The position numbers and the translations under genes were made by a program. A DNA stretch of 33,317 nucleotides from positions 1 through 33,317 of the IMG/VR virus record IMGVR_UViG_3300047365_000033. The stretch is one strand, 5' to 3'. The DNA comes from a virus. Within the stretch, counting starts at the first letter, position 1. Each line of letters starts with the position of its first letter. The notes under the pieces are model-generated. The model was given only the letters and a program-made list of their open reading frames with translations. It was not told the origin of the DNA and searched no databases. Shown here piece by piece: positions 2,770 to 29,858 of the stretch.

Positions 2770-2776
2770 CTAAATA
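2770..2776 (+). promoter_or_regulatory. Late promoter motif CTAAATA
   Basis: CTAAATA followed by TATC lies 24 bp upstream of the ATG at 2801. It matches the T4-like late promoter form seen repeatedly upstream of structural genes in this window. It would drive the three plus-strand genes. Confidence 0.65.
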
Positions 2777-2800: not shown

Positions 2801-3295
2801 ATGAAGAAATTACTTCCTATCGTTATGTTATTGATGACCGCTTCTGCTACTCAAGCAGGTGGACTTGTATCAAAGCACTCTTCGAGTGTTCAACTGACTG
2901 TTGATTCAGCTAGAACTCAGGCAACACGAATTGGTTCCTCATTTAGCATTGGTGGTTCTAATATTGATACCACAGATGGTACAACTGCTGGTGCTGTATC
3001 TACTGGTACTATTACTAGTGGTATCTATTCTCCTGGCACTATTGGTGCTACTCAAGACACAGCTGGTGCTGCGTTCTCATTTAATCAGTCTTATACACAG
3101 GGTGATGCAATCCCAACAGGTGCTCCTACCGTAGGTGAAGTACCTAACTATGGATCAGTCCTTTCCTATACTGCTGGTTCAGCAGGATCATTAGCTGGTA
3201 CAGTAACTTCAGCTGGTGTTCTCACCGTGACTGCTGGTGGGGCTGGTACGACAGCCACGGGACAATTCGTAAGTGAGATCACCGTCATTGACTGA
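2801..3295 (+). CDS. Predicted exported glycine/threonine/serine-rich protein, 164 aa
   Basis: A typical Sec signal peptide (MKKLLPIVMLLMTASATQA, cleavage before GGLVSK) precedes a low-complexity mature chain rich in Thr, Gly, Ser and Ala, likely all-beta. It contains SSFSIGGSNIDTTDG, AGAAFSFNQSY and many T-x-T-x-G steps. There are no cysteines in the mature part and no catalytic motif. The next gene appears to be a paralogue: both have a PGAAF/AGAAF-x-F-x-x-x-Y block and a similar layout. The gene follows a late promoter motif. Function unknown; a virion-associated or envelope protein are both possible. Confidence 0.85.
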   Translation: MKKLLPIVMLLMTASATQAGGLVSKHSSSVQLTVDSARTQATRIGSSFSIGGSNIDTTDGTTAGAVSTGTITSGIYSPGTIGATQDTAGAAFSFNQSYTQGDAIPTGAPTVGEVPNYGSVLSYTAGSAGSLAGTVTSAGVLTVTAGGAGTTATGQFVSEITVID

Positions 3296-3306
3296 GGAAG
3301 ATAACA

Positions 3307-3744
3307 ATGAAGACTATGATTCGTTGGTCTGTCCTAAGTGCGGTGGTTGCAAGTGTCATACCTGCAACTGCCCTGGCGGTCCCCGTGGTCCCAAATTTCA
3401 CCCAAGGCTCAATGACAAGCCGAACTGAGACAACACAAAAAATAACCGAGACCATCAATTCGATGGACTATAACACTGGGTATCAGTATTCTGCTACTGG
3501 CACTGGTGTATCAGCATCTGGAAACCTATCACCAGGAACAGGTGCTACTAATGTAACTATTAATGGAGTGACTTCATCATGGACTGGAGCAACAAACAAA
3601 CCACAGTTCACACAAACAGTACCAGGAGCAGCGTTTCAGTTCACAGAAACTTATCGCGGACCTGGTTTGAGCAACCAAACGATTATTCAAAGAGAAACCG
3701 ACGTTACAAGCATAACCGATACCACAAGTATCTTCTCGCAGTAA
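3307..3744 (+). CDS. Predicted exported protein, 145 aa, paralogue of the preceding gene
   Basis: A signal peptide of about 24 residues (positive MKTMIR, hydrophobic core, cleavage after ATALA) is followed by a Thr/Ser/Gly-rich chain with TQKITETINSMDY, GVSASGNLSPG and VPGAAFQFTETY. The PGAAF-x-F-x-x-x-Y block aligns with the preceding protein, suggesting duplication. GAGGAAG lies 6 nt upstream of the ATG, 11 bp after the stop of the first gene, so the two are co-transcribed. The last 166 bp are also read in another frame by the next gene. Function unknown. Confidence 0.83.
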   Translation: MKTMIRWSVLSAVVASVIPATALAVPVVPNFTQGSMTSRTETTQKITETINSMDYNTGYQYSATGTGVSASGNLSPGTGATNVTINGVTSSWTGATNKPQFTQTVPGAAFQFTETYRGPGLSNQTIIQRETDVTSITDTTSIFSQ

Positions 3745-4490
3745 CATTATTATTTGCTAATCCTTCTTATGCTGAAACTGTTGGTGGTGTCTCTGCTACT
3801 GCTAATCCTGTGGCTAATAGTTCAGGCTCCGTTACAAACCAAGCTATTCAAGTCCTTCAGGGACCATACATTACAAACACCTACGGTGGAGGTATACAAT
3901 GTCAAGGTCCCACTCGCAATTTCACTCCGTATGTAACAGGTAGTGTCTCTGCTTCCAAACCTTTTGAAGGTTATTATGATGACCCAGTATATGATGTAAC
4001 CGATAACTTTGGTGCCTACGATGCTGACGGGAATCCAATGGGAGATGGTATCTTAGATAATCCTGGTGATGTAAGTTTCTTTAAAAGAACTAGAACAGGA
4101 CAAAAAGATAACTACAGTTTAGGTGTAGGTTTCTCTATGACATGGAGCACACCTACAGATAAAAAGTTACAAGATCTTTGTAAAGAAGCAGCAACTTCTA
4201 ACATCGCAATGATGAAACAACTGACTGCTAATAAAAGATTGGACTTTGAGATTGCTCGCCTTAAGAATTGTGGTGAGTTAAAGTTAAAAGGAATTCAATT
4301 CCACCCCAAGTCACCATACTATTCTGTATGTGCTGATGTCTTAGTAAACAACCCACCAGGACATAAGCATCCACACTACCACAATATCCCTAGCGTTTCT
4401 TCTTCCTCCTCGGGAAGACAGAGCGAAGCTCCTTCACAGCATGATTCATCTGACGCTGCTCTGCTAGGCGCTCCCCTACAGACAAAATAG
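3579..4490 (+). CDS. Predicted exported protein with start inside the preceding gene, 303 aa
   Basis: The frame from 3579 gives a basic 50-residue N-terminus encoded inside the preceding gene, then a signal-peptide-like core KYLLAVTLLFANPSYA with cleavage before ETVGG. The mature part of about 240 aa has acidic repeats (YYDDPVYDVTDN, AYDADGNPMGDG), a central SLGVGFSMTW strand, a helical segment (MMKQLTANKRLDFEIARLKN), five cysteines and a His/Ser-rich tail. No ATG, GTG or TTG exists in this frame between 3579 and the hydrophobic core, and GGAG lies 10 nt before 3579. So either the long N-terminus is real, or expression uses a rare start or frameshifting. The 3' end overlaps the opposing gene by 101 bp. 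Function unknown. Confidence 0.75.
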   Translation: MDWSNKQTTVHTNSTRSSVSVHRNLSRTWFEQPNDYSKRNRRYKHNRYHKYLLAVTLLFANPSYAETVGGVSATANPVANSSGSVTNQAIQVLQGPYITNTYGGGIQCQGPTRNFTPYVTGSVSASKPFEGYYDDPVYDVTDNFGAYDADGNPMGDGILDNPGDVSFFKRTRTGQKDNYSLGVGFSMTWSTPTDKKLQDLCKEAATSNIAMMKQLTANKRLDFEIARLKNCGELKLKGIQFHPKSPYYSVCADVLVNNPPGHKHPHYHNIPSVSSSSSGRQSEAPSQHDSSDAALLGAPLQTK

Positions 4491-5199
4491 GAGGTTTCTT
4501 ACCGCGTAAGGTAGAAATCTTTTTCATAACTTTCTTAACCGCTGGTTTGACTGCTTTCAATAGTATGTCTGCCAGCGGTTTTGCTAGTAGTGCTGATGAT
4601 GTAGCGATGACAGCAATACCACCTACCTGCATTACCTGTCCACCACTAGGCAGACCAGCAAGAATTTGTGTGGGTAGAGGAACTGGTTCTGTTATCTGGA
4701 CACACGTCTTATCAATGAGTTTATAACCAACAACTTCCTTTCTAAAACCTTCTACTAATGTTCCTACAGGTTCCTGTGCTTGCTGTACCTTAGTAGGACA
4801 TTCTACTTTGGCAGTAGGTGGTGGAGGTGGAGGTGGTGTATCTGTTTTTGTTTCTGGTGGTGTAGGTTTATCTGGTGTTCTGTTATCCACCTGAGGTGGA
4901 CCAGTCATAATCATCTGGTTTGGTTCATAAGAAATAGGATTAAAATTGGGAACACCAGAATCGCAAAACGTAACCACACCATTAGGATCGTCCTCTCTTA
5001 ATTGATTATTTTTAGCAGTATTAGTTTCAGTCGCTTCAACACATCCTGGTATATCAACCACAGGCACACCAATGTTAACAACTACTGGAGCTGCTATTGG
5101 TAGTGATGTTGAATTGTTATTGAAATCATAGGTGCGTATAGTATTAATTTGAATATCTTTAATACTAATATCTCCACCTGTAATAATAGGTATATCCAT
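4390..5199 (-). CDS. Proline-rich protein with hydrophobic segment and basic tail, about 269 aa
   Basis: The N-terminal region (DIPIITGGDISIKDIQI, VVVNIGVPVVDIPG) looks beta-rich. A proline-rich linker follows at about residues 100-130, with seven consecutive Pro, then a hydrophobic segment at about 195-218 (GGIAVIATSSALLA) and a strongly basic C-terminus ending PRRKKKR. Five cysteines are present. ATG at 5199 overlaps the stop of the upstream gene (TAATG); an in-frame ATG at 5205 is an alternative. The last 101 bp run against the end of the plus-strand 303-aa gene. I do not recognise the family; the layout resembles an anchored structural or membrane-associated protein. Confidence 0.75.
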   Translation of the reverse strand: MDIPIITGGDISIKDIQINTIRTYDFNNNSTSLPIAAPVVVNIGVPVVDIPGCVEATETNTAKNNQLREDDPNGVVTFCDSGVPNFNPISYEPNQMIMTGPPQVDNRTPDKPTPPETKTDTPPPPPPPTAKVECPTKVQQAQEPVGTLVEGFRKEVVGYKLIDKTCVQITEPVPLPTQILAGLPSGGQVMQVGGIAVIATSSALLAKPLADILLKAVKPAVKKVMKKISTLRGKKPPILSVGERLAEQRQMNHAVKELRSVFPRRKKKR

Positions 5200-5768
5200 T
5201 AGCAATCATTAAATACGCTTCCCACTTGTGAACCGAGTGTTGACCCTGCCTTCTGTCCTAGAAGCAGAGCCCAACCACCTGCTAACCACCCCACGTAAGG
5301 GATGCTAGCGACCGCTGGAACGGCGAGACCAGCAGCTATGCTAGTTCCTGCCATCGCACCTTGTGATCGTGCTCCAGCGTCCGCGATCAAACACTCTACT
5401 TCTTTCGCAGACTTTCCCTGCTCGTCAGTTGCACCTCCTAGGTTCCTAGTACCCTCACGGGTGAACTGATCTGTACGCCATTCACGGCGACTCTCTGTGC
5501 CACCACCGAAGAATCCTTTCTTGGTAACATCAGAAGATAAAGATCTTTGTGATTCTAAAACTTTAGGATCGTCAGCACGGAATTCAATTTCATAACCATC
5601 CTTACCTGCCTTAATCCTATAAGAAGAGTAAGGACCACGGGGGATGTGAAATGTAGGAGGTTGGAGCACAGGTTCAGGTTCCTGCCTGAAAACATATCCA
5701 AGCAGACCTATATGTGCTACAACAAATACTCCACCAACTGAAGCGGCGACGATCTTAAGTTTATTCAT
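5199..5768 (-). CDS. Membrane-anchored hypothetical protein, 189 aa
   Basis: An N-terminal membrane segment (VAASVGGVFVVAHIGLLGYV, about residues 8-27) is followed by a polar region (HIPRGPYSSYRIKAGKDGYE, FGGGTESRREWRTDQFTREG). A C-terminal glycine/alanine-rich hydrophobic zone at about 141-172 (IAAGLAVPAVASIPYVGWLA) could be a glycine-zipper-like membrane hairpin. Two cysteines, one at the extreme C-terminus. It sits in a run of four membrane-type genes between the exported proteins and the fibre cassette. Function unknown. Confidence 0.8.
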   Translation of the reverse strand: MNKLKIVAASVGGVFVVAHIGLLGYVFRQEPEPVLQPPTFHIPRGPYSSYRIKAGKDGYEIEFRADDPKVLESQRSLSSDVTKKGFFGGGTESRREWRTDQFTREGTRNLGGATDEQGKSAKEVECLIADAGARSQGAMAGTSIAAGLAVPAVASIPYVGWLAGGWALLLGQKAGSTLGSQVGSVFNDC

Positions 5769-5770
5769 GG

Positions 5771-6010
5771 TTAGAATGGCATAGTGGGACTAGGCACAGC
5801 AGGACCAGTAATCTCAGGGACACCTGGAACAGCAGCATCTACCAGTGATGGTAGTGCTTCTGTAATTGCTTCAGTGATAGCAGCAGTTACTCTCTCCCTT
5901 GATTGCTCAATTAATGTATCCTTTTGAACGTAAAGATAAGCACCACCCCCTAAGACAGCTAAAGAAACTAAACCAGATAACAACGCGACACCATTAATCA
6001 ATTTTTGCAT
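5771..6010 (-). CDS. Small single-helix membrane protein, 79 aa
   Basis: The product starts MQKLINGVALLSGLVSLAVL, one membrane helix to about residue 27, then an amphipathic helix (DTLIEQSRERVTAAITEAIT) and a Pro-rich end (VPGVPEITGPAVPSP). I chose ATG 6008-6010 because GGAGAAGAAAG lies immediately upstream; a longer in-frame version to 6070 would give an odd basic N-terminus and overlap the upstream gene heavily. It overlaps the preceding gene by 17 bp. Function unknown. Confidence 0.78.
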   Translation of the reverse strand: MQKLINGVALLSGLVSLAVLGGGAYLYVQKDTLIEQSRERVTAAITEAITEALPSLVDAAVPGVPEITGPAVPSPTMPF

Positions 6011-6278
6011 CTTTCTTCTCCAATGTAGGTGCTTGCTTAGATTCATCCTTCTTCTTAGAAGGCATGACACCGAACGTAGCTAAAGTTCCAGTAAAAACAC
6101 TGGCAATAAAAGTTGGATCGATATTTTTCTGAGGAATACCAGGAACAGTTACATAATTAAGAGTCAGAATTGCTGCTGACCATCCAAGAATAATAACTCG
6201 AACGAGAGTTGATACACCCTCATCCGCCCACTCAAATTTGTTTTCCTTTTTGGCTTCCTCTTTCTTTGGATTATCCAT
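5994..6278 (-). CDS. Two-helix small membrane protein, holin-like topology, 94 aa
   Basis: Charged N-terminus (MDNPKKEEAKKENKFEWADE), two predicted membrane helices at about residues 24-44 (LVRVIILGWSAAILTLNYV) and 55-72 (PTFIASVFTGTLATFGV), and a lysine-rich charged C-terminus. Size and topology would suit a class II holin, but no homology evidence is available and the recognised lysin is 24 kb away, so the role stays open. A late promoter motif (GATAAATA, 6300-6307) lies 22 bp upstream. Confidence 0.8.
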   Translation of the reverse strand: MDNPKKEEAKKENKFEWADEGVSTLVRVIILGWSAAILTLNYVTVPGIPQKNIDPTFIASVFTGTLATFGVMPSKKKDESKQAPTLEKKDAKID

Positions 6279-6299
6279 AAGTAAAGAGTTAGGCTCTTC

Positions 6300-6307
6300 T
6301 ATTTATC
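6300..6307 (-). promoter_or_regulatory. Late promoter motif GATAAATA
   Basis: Minus-strand GATAAATA overlaps the stop codon of the upstream oxygenase gene and lies 22 bp before the start of the two-helix membrane protein. It matches the NATAAATA late motif. Confidence 0.55.
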
Positions 6308-6920
6308 AAAACCATGCCATATTACCAGCAACTGATACTCTAGGTTCATCAGTTCCATAAAAAGGATACACTAAATGGTTCATCTCAGCAGGGAAAAACA
6401 CCATGATACCTTCCATCTGCTCACCCATAGGATAGTTAAATGATTTCCTGTGTCCAAAAATATTTACATACTCAAATTGAAAACATGATACACATTGACT
6501 AGTAGTTTTACTAGCGAAGGGTAACTGCAACTGATCCCTAGTATCAACAGGCATCTTCAACCATATGACAAAAGAGAATGCACCGAAGTGTACGTGTGAT
6601 GGATTGAACTCAGTTTGATACTGCCAGTTCACCCAGAGATCATGTAGTTGTAAACTTGCGTCATCAGATATCCTACTAACCATTTGATTTGGTTTGTAAT
6701 TAAACTGTTCGCGATACTCACTCGTTACGTTATCCATAAACGAACGAAACATATCAGTAGGATCCATCTCCAAACTACTAGAGATGTTACCTGCTAATTT
6801 ATCTTTGGCATCTACCTTTGCGAGATCAACCATACTCCACACATCTTTCATGATGTCTTGTGGTACACGAACTTCTAACCACCCATCTCTGATAGGTATG
6901 ATAGGTCTAGATTCAAACAT
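6306..6920 (-). CDS. 2-oxoglutarate/Fe(II)-dependent oxygenase-like protein, 204 aa
   Basis: The C-terminal half fits the double-stranded beta-helix oxygenases of the 2OG-FeII_Oxy_5 type common in cyanophages: a His-x-His pair in NPSHVHFGAFSFVIW (His109, His111), a distal His182 in FFPAEMNHLVYPF, and Arg194 in PRVSVAGN, which would bind 2-oxoglutarate. The N-terminal 100 residues are helical. The family couples 2-oxoglutarate decarboxylation to substrate hydroxylation; the substrate is unknown. It follows the fibre cassette, whose upstream edge is marked by a similar gene at 25982-26434. An extended -10 element lies 20 bp upstream. Confidence 0.82.
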   Translation of the reverse strand: MFESRPIIPIRDGWLEVRVPQDIMKDVWSMVDLAKVDAKDKLAGNISSSLEMDPTDMFRSFMDNVTSEYREQFNYKPNQMVSRISDDASLQLHDLWVNWQYQTEFNPSHVHFGAFSFVIWLKMPVDTRDQLQLPFASKTTSQCVSCFQFEYVNIFGHRKSFNYPMGEQMEGIMVFFPAEMNHLVYPFYGTDEPRVSVAGNMAWF

Positions 6921-26434: not shown

Positions 26435-26450
26435 ATCTATATTTTAAAAA

Positions 26451-26521
26451 GCGAATGATCGGACTTGAACCGACGACATCTAACTTGGAAGGATAGCGTT
26501 CTACCGCTGAACTACATTCGC
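26451..26521 (-). tRNA. tRNA-Gly (TCC)
   Basis: A 71-nt cloverleaf on the minus strand: 7-bp acceptor (GCGAATG/CATTCGC), D arm with AGCGGTA, anticodon loop CTTCCAA (anticodon TCC) and T loop TTCAAGT. The anticodon stem CTATC/GTTAG has one T-T mismatch. CCA is not encoded. It lies between a terminator and the oxygenase gene. Confidence 0.95.
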
Positions 26522-29596: not shown

Positions 29597-29625
29597 TAGT
29601 AAGCATTTAACCTCATATGAGTAAT

Positions 29626-29696
29626 GCTCGAAGAGGGGATCGAACCCCCGACAATCTCCGTGTAAAGGAGGTGCTCTACCTCTGAGCTATTCGAGC
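29626..29696 (-). tRNA. tRNA-Val (TAC)
   Basis: 71-nt cloverleaf on the minus strand with acceptor GCTCGAA, anticodon loop TTTACAC (anticodon TAC) between stem CCTCC and GGAG, and T loop TTCGATC. CCA is not encoded. Confidence 0.96.
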
Positions 29697-29700
29697 GAGT

Positions 29701-29781
29701 GTCGGTAAGAGGACTTGAACCTCCACGTCATAAGACACCAGAACCTAAACCTGGCGCGTCTACCAATTCCGCCATACCGAC
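29701..29781 (-). tRNA. tRNA-Leu (TAG)
   Basis: 81-nt class II tRNA with acceptor GTCGGTA/TACCGAC, anticodon loop TTTAGGT (anticodon TAG) between CCAGG and TCTGG, a long variable arm, and T loop TTCAAGT. It directly abuts the CCA end of tRNA-Arg. CCA is not encoded. Confidence 0.96.

Positions 29782-29858
<77 letters not shown>

Follow-up and report, generated by a model that had tools for sequence, protein, structure and literature searches.

The window analyzed here is a 33,317-nt stretch of a virus record and represents a fragment of a T4-like cyanomyovirus close to ACG-2014e/j and S-CAM4; the 4.5 kb of the window that were tested matched the T4-like Synechococcus phages ACG-2014e/j/i and S-CAM4 at 88 to 91%. 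Three consecutive genes (ORF1, ORF2, and ORF3) are the sole plus-strand genes, and every other credible gene of the window lies on the minus strand, so that the isolated plus-strand trio described in the original prediction was indeed found. Just upstream of the trio are a psbA-like D1 gene, which is cut by the window end, a ferredoxin gene, and a gene for a high-light-inducible protein. The minus strand also carries four tRNA genes (Gly at 26450-26521; Val, Leu, and Arg within 29625-29858). The trio forms half of a seven-gene module, the other half being four convergent minus-strand genes for membrane proteins (4390-6278) with a late-type box of their own. The original prediction, correct on the three genes, had overlooked these convergent partners and the putative start of ORF3 nested in ORF2. 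The features are as follows.

2770..2776, plus strand: late-type box CTAAATA, 31 nt upstream of ORF1
2801..3295, plus strand: ORF1 (T4-GC237, phrog_564); predicted exported protein, Gly/Ser/Thr-rich, called "OMP1 protein" in some records
3307..3744, plus strand: ORF2 (T4-GC236, DUF6322, phrog_650); predicted exported protein, beta-rich, distant paralogue of ORF1
3579..4490, plus strand: ORF3 (T4-GC235, phrog_848); putative start at ATG 3579 inside ORF2, long basic leader
4390..5205, minus strand: GC234 (phrog_570); Pro-rich, with a C-terminal hydrophobic segment and a basic tail, start at TTG 5205 or ATG 5199
5199..5768, minus strand: GC219 (phrog_605); N-terminal hydrophobic anchor
5771..6010, minus strand: GC414 (phrog_568, labeled "plasmid stability"); small, N-terminal hydrophobic segment
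5994..6278, minus strand: GC218 (DUF6450, phrog_721); small, charged at its ends, with a clear hydrophobic segment and a second, weaker one; candidate for a holin-like protein
6300..6306, minus strand: late-type box ATAAATA, 28 nt upstream of GC218

Identity of the seven genes

By sequence homology and gene order, the trio belongs to the T4-GC237/236/235 cyanophage cluster. The trio genes are considered real because of the many matching phage records (407 for ORF1 and 444 for ORF3) and the purifying selection seen in the mature part of ORF3 (pN 0.13 versus pS 0.52). ORF2 scored 139.8 bits for DUF6322 (PF19847; curated cut-off, 30.6) and GC218 scored 111.4 bits for DUF6450 (PF20048; curated cut-off, 25). 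In the 177-kb genome of Syn9, the trio orthologues gp165-167, together with gp7-9, are the only genes running against the main direction. In the window, ORF3 and GC234 share 101 nt at their 3' ends (4390-4490), on opposite strands; comparable overlaps of 95 to 101 nt appear in the annotations of Syn1 and ACG-2014g. The proposal that ORF1 and ORF2 are paralogues sharing a GAAFxF block holds for a distant relationship, which is weak by BLASTP (E of 0.013) and clear by profile-profile comparison, where the alignment of the two family profiles spans about 52 columns around the block and has a probability of 80 to 84% (P of ~1e-5), versus 0.1 to 0.3% when either profile was compared with ORF3 as a control.

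Searches of Pfam, PHROGs, NCBIfam, and PADLOC returned no named function for the seven module proteins. Pfam and PHROGs gave no enzyme or transporter domain in the module; with NCBIfam added, they gave no peptidoglycan hydrolase among the seven window proteins and no match of any module member to a known lysis family, and GC218 matched no holin family.

Export signals and structural models

The proteins were scanned for export signals by a simple heuristic, which looks for a basic n-region, a hydrophobic core, and a small-x-small (A-x-A) site. The scan flagged ORF1, ORF2, and ORF3 and, among the 31 other window genes, GC219 and GC414 alone, which are better read as membrane anchored. The signal is kept in the homologues examined, i.e., 93 of 93 for ORF1, 73 of 73 for ORF3 in the close myovirus set, and 78 of 78 for the podovirus ORF2. 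ORF1 to ORF3 thus appear to carry Sec-type export signals, which are probably cleaved. All seven module proteins of the window have an export or membrane segment, although the second hydrophobic segment of GC218 falls under the cut-off of the scan. No Cys, as would form a lipobox, was found near the predicted cleavage sites of ORF1 to ORF3, and therefore the trio contains no classical spanin.

AlphaFold2 yielded a moderate model of ORF2 (pLDDT of 78), with two strands of about 24 residues each, and a weaker model of ORF3 (pLDDT of 67), in which beta strands are followed by a 42-residue helix. Fold searches of both models against the PDB gave no significant match; the best result for ORF2 had a Z score of 4.3 (5gaq; rmsd of 5.3 over 52 residues), and no Foldseek match reached an E value of ≤0.001. 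Resemblances of the two models to pore stems and phage collars were weak and were not counted as evidence. Sequence searches against solved structures produced chance matches only, and the significant ranks of a viral library were all uncharacterized proteins. Four Cys residues are invariant in the alignment of the ORF3 family, suggesting the formation of disulfides and an oxidizing compartment.

A putative start of ORF3 nested within ORF2

ORF2 and ORF3 overlap at 3579-3744 in different frames. No ATG, GTG, or TTG lies between ATG 3579 and the signal sequence of ORF3, and because the frame offers no other start codon ahead of the signal, the hydrophobic core begins at about residue 51. Therefore, the prediction of signal-peptide-like N termini in all three proteins stood as to the presence of the signals and failed as to the position of the ORF3 core, which is not N-terminal. 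The ORF3 frame was compared with a recoding control, in which ORF2 was rewritten with synonymous codons and the share of trials leaving the ORF3 frame open was recorded. In four groups of loci, the frame was open in 85 of 87, 82 of 82, 49 of 79, and 77 of 80 cases, versus 1.5%, 1.5%, 1.8%, and 0.03% of the recoding trials. The siphovirus value (49 of 79) is lower because the tested region includes the codon before the ATG, which may be a stop, such as the TAG immediately before the ORF3 ATG of MED4-117; counted from the start codon, 79 of 79 siphovirus frames are open. Within each group, the ATG itself keeps a constant spacing to the ORF2 stop (73 of 87, 80 of 82, 78 of 79, and 65 of 80 loci), which alone is less telling, since it partly follows from a conserved Trp codon (chance of 22 to 61%).

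The overlap encodes a basic leader, with a median net charge of +6 to +12, and the hydrophobic core behind it starts at residues 41 to 63 across the groups. The leader sequence drifts in the ORF3 frame (pN of 0.19 versus pS of 0.20); in the same stretch, ORF2 is constrained (pN of 0.11, pS of 0.49). Since the amino acids of the leader are not conserved, the evidence for dual coding consists of the open frame, the ATG, and the hydrophobic core, and from these we infer that translation of ORF3 begins internally, at ATG 3579 within ORF2. We also considered that a ribosomal frameshift might join ORF2 and ORF3 but set this aside: inspection by eye showed no slippery heptamer, and the ORF3 frame of the myovirus and siphovirus sets opens just before the conserved ATG. 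The nested start helps to account for the truncated or missing ORF3 of several annotations. In two records, KJ019094 (ACG-2014e isolate Syn7803US33, 5300-6600) and NC_026924 (ACG-2014g, 4506-5700), the annotated ORF3 is shortened because the frame is broken near its 5' part, whether by a real change or by a sequencing error; in the former, the break lies beside a local sequence duplication.

Late-type promoter boxes

A late promoter had been proposed in front of the trio, and the evidence from related phages agrees with it. In addition to the CTAAATA box of the window, an [ACT]TAAATA box occurs within 100 nt upstream of ORF1 in 63 of 92 and 38 of 72 myovirus loci, versus 9 to 14% in shuffles, and mostly lies 28 to 37 nt before the start of ORF1. 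In the siphovirus set the box was found in 3 of 69 loci only, as expected for phages that have no T4-type late transcription. Boxes of the same type precede GC218 and several large minus-strand genes of the window, including structural genes. The raw number of late-type boxes in the window is not above chance, and it is their placement, not their number, that carries the information.

The module occurs in three phage families

A total of 343 loci were searched with profiles. These loci were fetched by similarity and include many close relatives, so that counts within a group are not independent and the agreement between phage groups is what matters. In myoviruses, ORF1, ORF2, and ORF3 are convergent with GC234, GC219, GC414, and GC218. 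In the MED4-117-type loci (a Prochlorococcus siphovirus), GC218, ORF1, ORF2, and ORF3 are convergent with GC234 and GC414, which come after the tail genes. In T7-like cyanopodoviruses, GC234, GC218, ORF2, and ORF3 run in one direction and, in annotated genomes, are followed by the small terminase gene; most GC234 matches of this group are limited to the C-terminal part (E of ~1e-10 to 1e-19 in annotated genomes). The shared core thus comprises the DUF6450 protein, GC234, one or two beta-rich exported proteins, of which ORF2 is common to all three families, and ORF3.

The podovirus module is placed between the tail fiber and small terminase genes. In T7, the same interval holds the holin gene 17.5, and by this analogy of gene order the cyanopodovirus module occupies the T7 holin site. 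In Syn5, whose structural proteins include gp53/54/58, two proteins with no assigned function, gp47 and gp48, are encoded between the tail fiber and the small terminase. In podoviruses and the MED4-117 siphovirus, the neighbors of the module include a DUF7936 (phrog_7802) protein (L087, 3521-3835; L088, 6340-6648; L085, 9275-9607). A full module of the cyanophage type was also seen in the assembly of a flavobacterial isolate (Nonlabens xiamenensis, NZ_RMVE01000006, 188 kb), which is probably a phage contig brought along with the culture or the assembly.

Relatives in cyanobacterial genomes

A scan of a genome collection revealed ORF1-ORF2-ORF3, in the order of the phage module, in three freshwater Synechococcaceae assemblies (L368, L369, and L371), with a convergent GC234 in L368 and L371. 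These loci differ from the module in lying on host-type contigs, in an ORF3 start that is not deep within ORF2, and in that no DUF6450 was found. One contig runs on into genes for NAD kinase, ndh subunits, and citrate synthase, and these core metabolic genes argue for a chromosome; the trio lies near the contig end and may alternatively be a prophage remnant. All three contigs stop near the locus. Matches were rare (6 of 300 genomes of Synechococcaceae), and two of the six had the podovirus arrangement (G072 and G284) and were the only cyanobacterial assemblies in which DUF6450 was found, while two were weak ORF3-only matches.

More remote relatives of ORF3 sit with other tandem secreted proteins in other cyanobacteria. 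At one locus (L397; G546 contig 61), a partial ORF1-like gene, an ORF2-like gene, a gene for another small secreted protein, and an ORF3-like gene are in tandem, and the next gene encodes a predicted exported protein of the Staphylococcal-nuclease type. At two loci of large-genome cyanobacteria (L395 and L396), the distant ORF3 relatives adjoin one or two related small exported proteins (MKKVLGLAIL...AGETFV) and an anchored protein, a similar layout with no detectable homology to ORF1 or ORF2. A Pfam match of one host ORF3 to OEP/TolC was weak (E of 0.003, under the cut-off) and was not relied on.

Possible functions of the module

Our leading, still tentative reading is that marine cyanophages carry a late cassette for breaching the envelope (lysis/egress), of which the trio is the exported arm. 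It is favored by the late-type boxes, the membrane partners, the hydrophobic phage protein at the T7 holin site, the sharing of the module across unrelated virion types on the same hosts, and the lack of a named lysis gene. Further points in its favor are that GC234 and GC414 of the siphovirus come after the tail genes and that all DUF6450 matches found in cyanobacterial assemblies were in podovirus-type loci. The DUF6450 protein would open the inner membrane late in infection in a holin-like manner, while ORF1 to ORF3, secreted earlier by Sec, would build up in the periplasm or outer membrane and, together with the anchored GC234 (and GC219 and GC414), would disrupt the wall or the outer membrane, allowing the progeny to escape. 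The trio and its partners might thereby do the job of the spanins of enterobacterial phages, though without spanin features. The records of Syn9, MED4-117, and S-RIP1 name no holin, endolysin, or spanin, an absence from annotations that is weak evidence; gp5 of Syn9, a tail lysozyme, serves in entry, and no peptidoglycan hydrolase was found among ten unannotated proteins of MED4-117. According to a 2026 study of Syn9 lysis timing, further work is needed on whether the holin-endolysin mechanism applies (PMC13371907). The case is circumstantial, and against it count the cyanomyovirus S-PM2, which is without the cluster, the lack of a match to any lysis family or of a peptidoglycan hydrolase among the seven window proteins, the missing spanin features, the second hydrophobic segment of the window GC218 that is under the scan cut-off, and the relatives of the trio and GC234 on host contigs. 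In its most specific form, the proposal is of an undescribed lysis system common to marine cyanophages of three unrelated families, made of a DUF6450 holin, Sec-exported beta-rich proteins, and a C-terminally anchored protein, which would open the outer membrane without spanins by means of a set of exoproteins with relatives among the chromosomal genes of cyanobacteria, one component being translated from a nested start; the full combination is rather unlikely to hold in every part.

Late remodeling of the envelope is a possible alternative that we weigh seriously and rate as somewhat improbable. Here, the trio and GC234 would form a host-type outer-membrane or surface structure made late by the phage, with DUF6450 as an accessory, for example to block superinfection or to keep progeny from sticking to the dying cell. 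The freshwater contigs with the trio and convergent GC234, one of which extends into core metabolic genes, and the more distant ORF3 relatives adjoining other secreted proteins speak for it; these host relatives suggest that the proteins are not lethal alone and are rather structural. However, superinfection exclusion is usually early, whereas the boxes are of the late type; DUF6450 and the T7 holin site are left unexplained, and none of the seven proteins matched a PADLOC model of anti-phage or exclusion systems. Among the three roles originally suggested, lysis fits best, given the late-type promoters and the T7 holin site, and envelope modification and superinfection exclusion stay in play, given the trio relatives in cyanobacterial genomes.

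It is improbable that these are metabolic or nutrient-related exoproteins, e.g., periplasmic proteins that support the physiology of the infected host. Metabolic helpers are numerous in cyanophages, and photosynthesis or phosphate genes adjoin the module in some genomes, but this adjacency looks incidental because the neighbors vary between phages while the module stays intact, and no enzyme or transporter domain was found. A role as virion or assembly proteins with signal-like N termini is least likely: the late-type promoters are of the kind that precedes structural genes of the window and the podovirus module adjoins a tail fiber gene, yet the proteins have export signals, the module is common to three unrelated virion types and missing from S-PM2, and the virion-protein labels of the S-SM1 and Syn9 records are given to other proteins and not to these. 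The conserved signals and membrane-protein partners likewise support the original view, in which the proteins are sent to the host envelope and are not part of virion assembly.

By lysing Prochlorococcus and Synechococcus, these phages give rise to a large carbon flow in the ocean. If the module is a lysis cassette, the question of how lysis occurs becomes directly testable through a few genes; if it instead makes a host-related envelope structure, it represents a widespread class of virus-carried exoproteins.

Comparison with known systems

The gene cluster itself is already known. Sullivan et al. (2010) reported most of it from 15 of 16 cyanomyoviruses, S-PM2 being without it, and treated the genes as hypothetical (PMC3037559). 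Their T4-GC218/219/234/235/237, with the "plasmid stability" gene GC414, are identical to the module in genes and layout, and the window is a member of this cluster. No function was assigned there; the siphovirus and podovirus counterparts, the nested start of ORF3, and the host relatives are added here. The spread over three families, the holin-site position, the nested start, and the host relatives are unmentioned in the accessible literature, most subscription papers being outside its scope.

The lysis genes of T7 (holin 17.5, near the small terminase gene 18, and spanins 18.5/18.7) resemble the cyanopodovirus module in genome position, in the presence of a small hydrophobic protein, and in a gene nested in another frame, but there is no detectable homology, and the trio has exported proteins in place of a lipoprotein spanin. 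The Rz/Rz1 spanin pair, like ORF2 and ORF3, consists of overlapping genes for envelope proteins in different frames, whereas ORF2 and ORF3 have no lipobox and both have predicted Sec-type signals, followed by mature parts that are beta-rich or contain a helix. Finally, the long beta strands of the ORF2 model are also a trait of beta-barrel pore-forming proteins of the lysenin and aerolysin type, a similarity that is weak and not significant and from which we claim no family membership.
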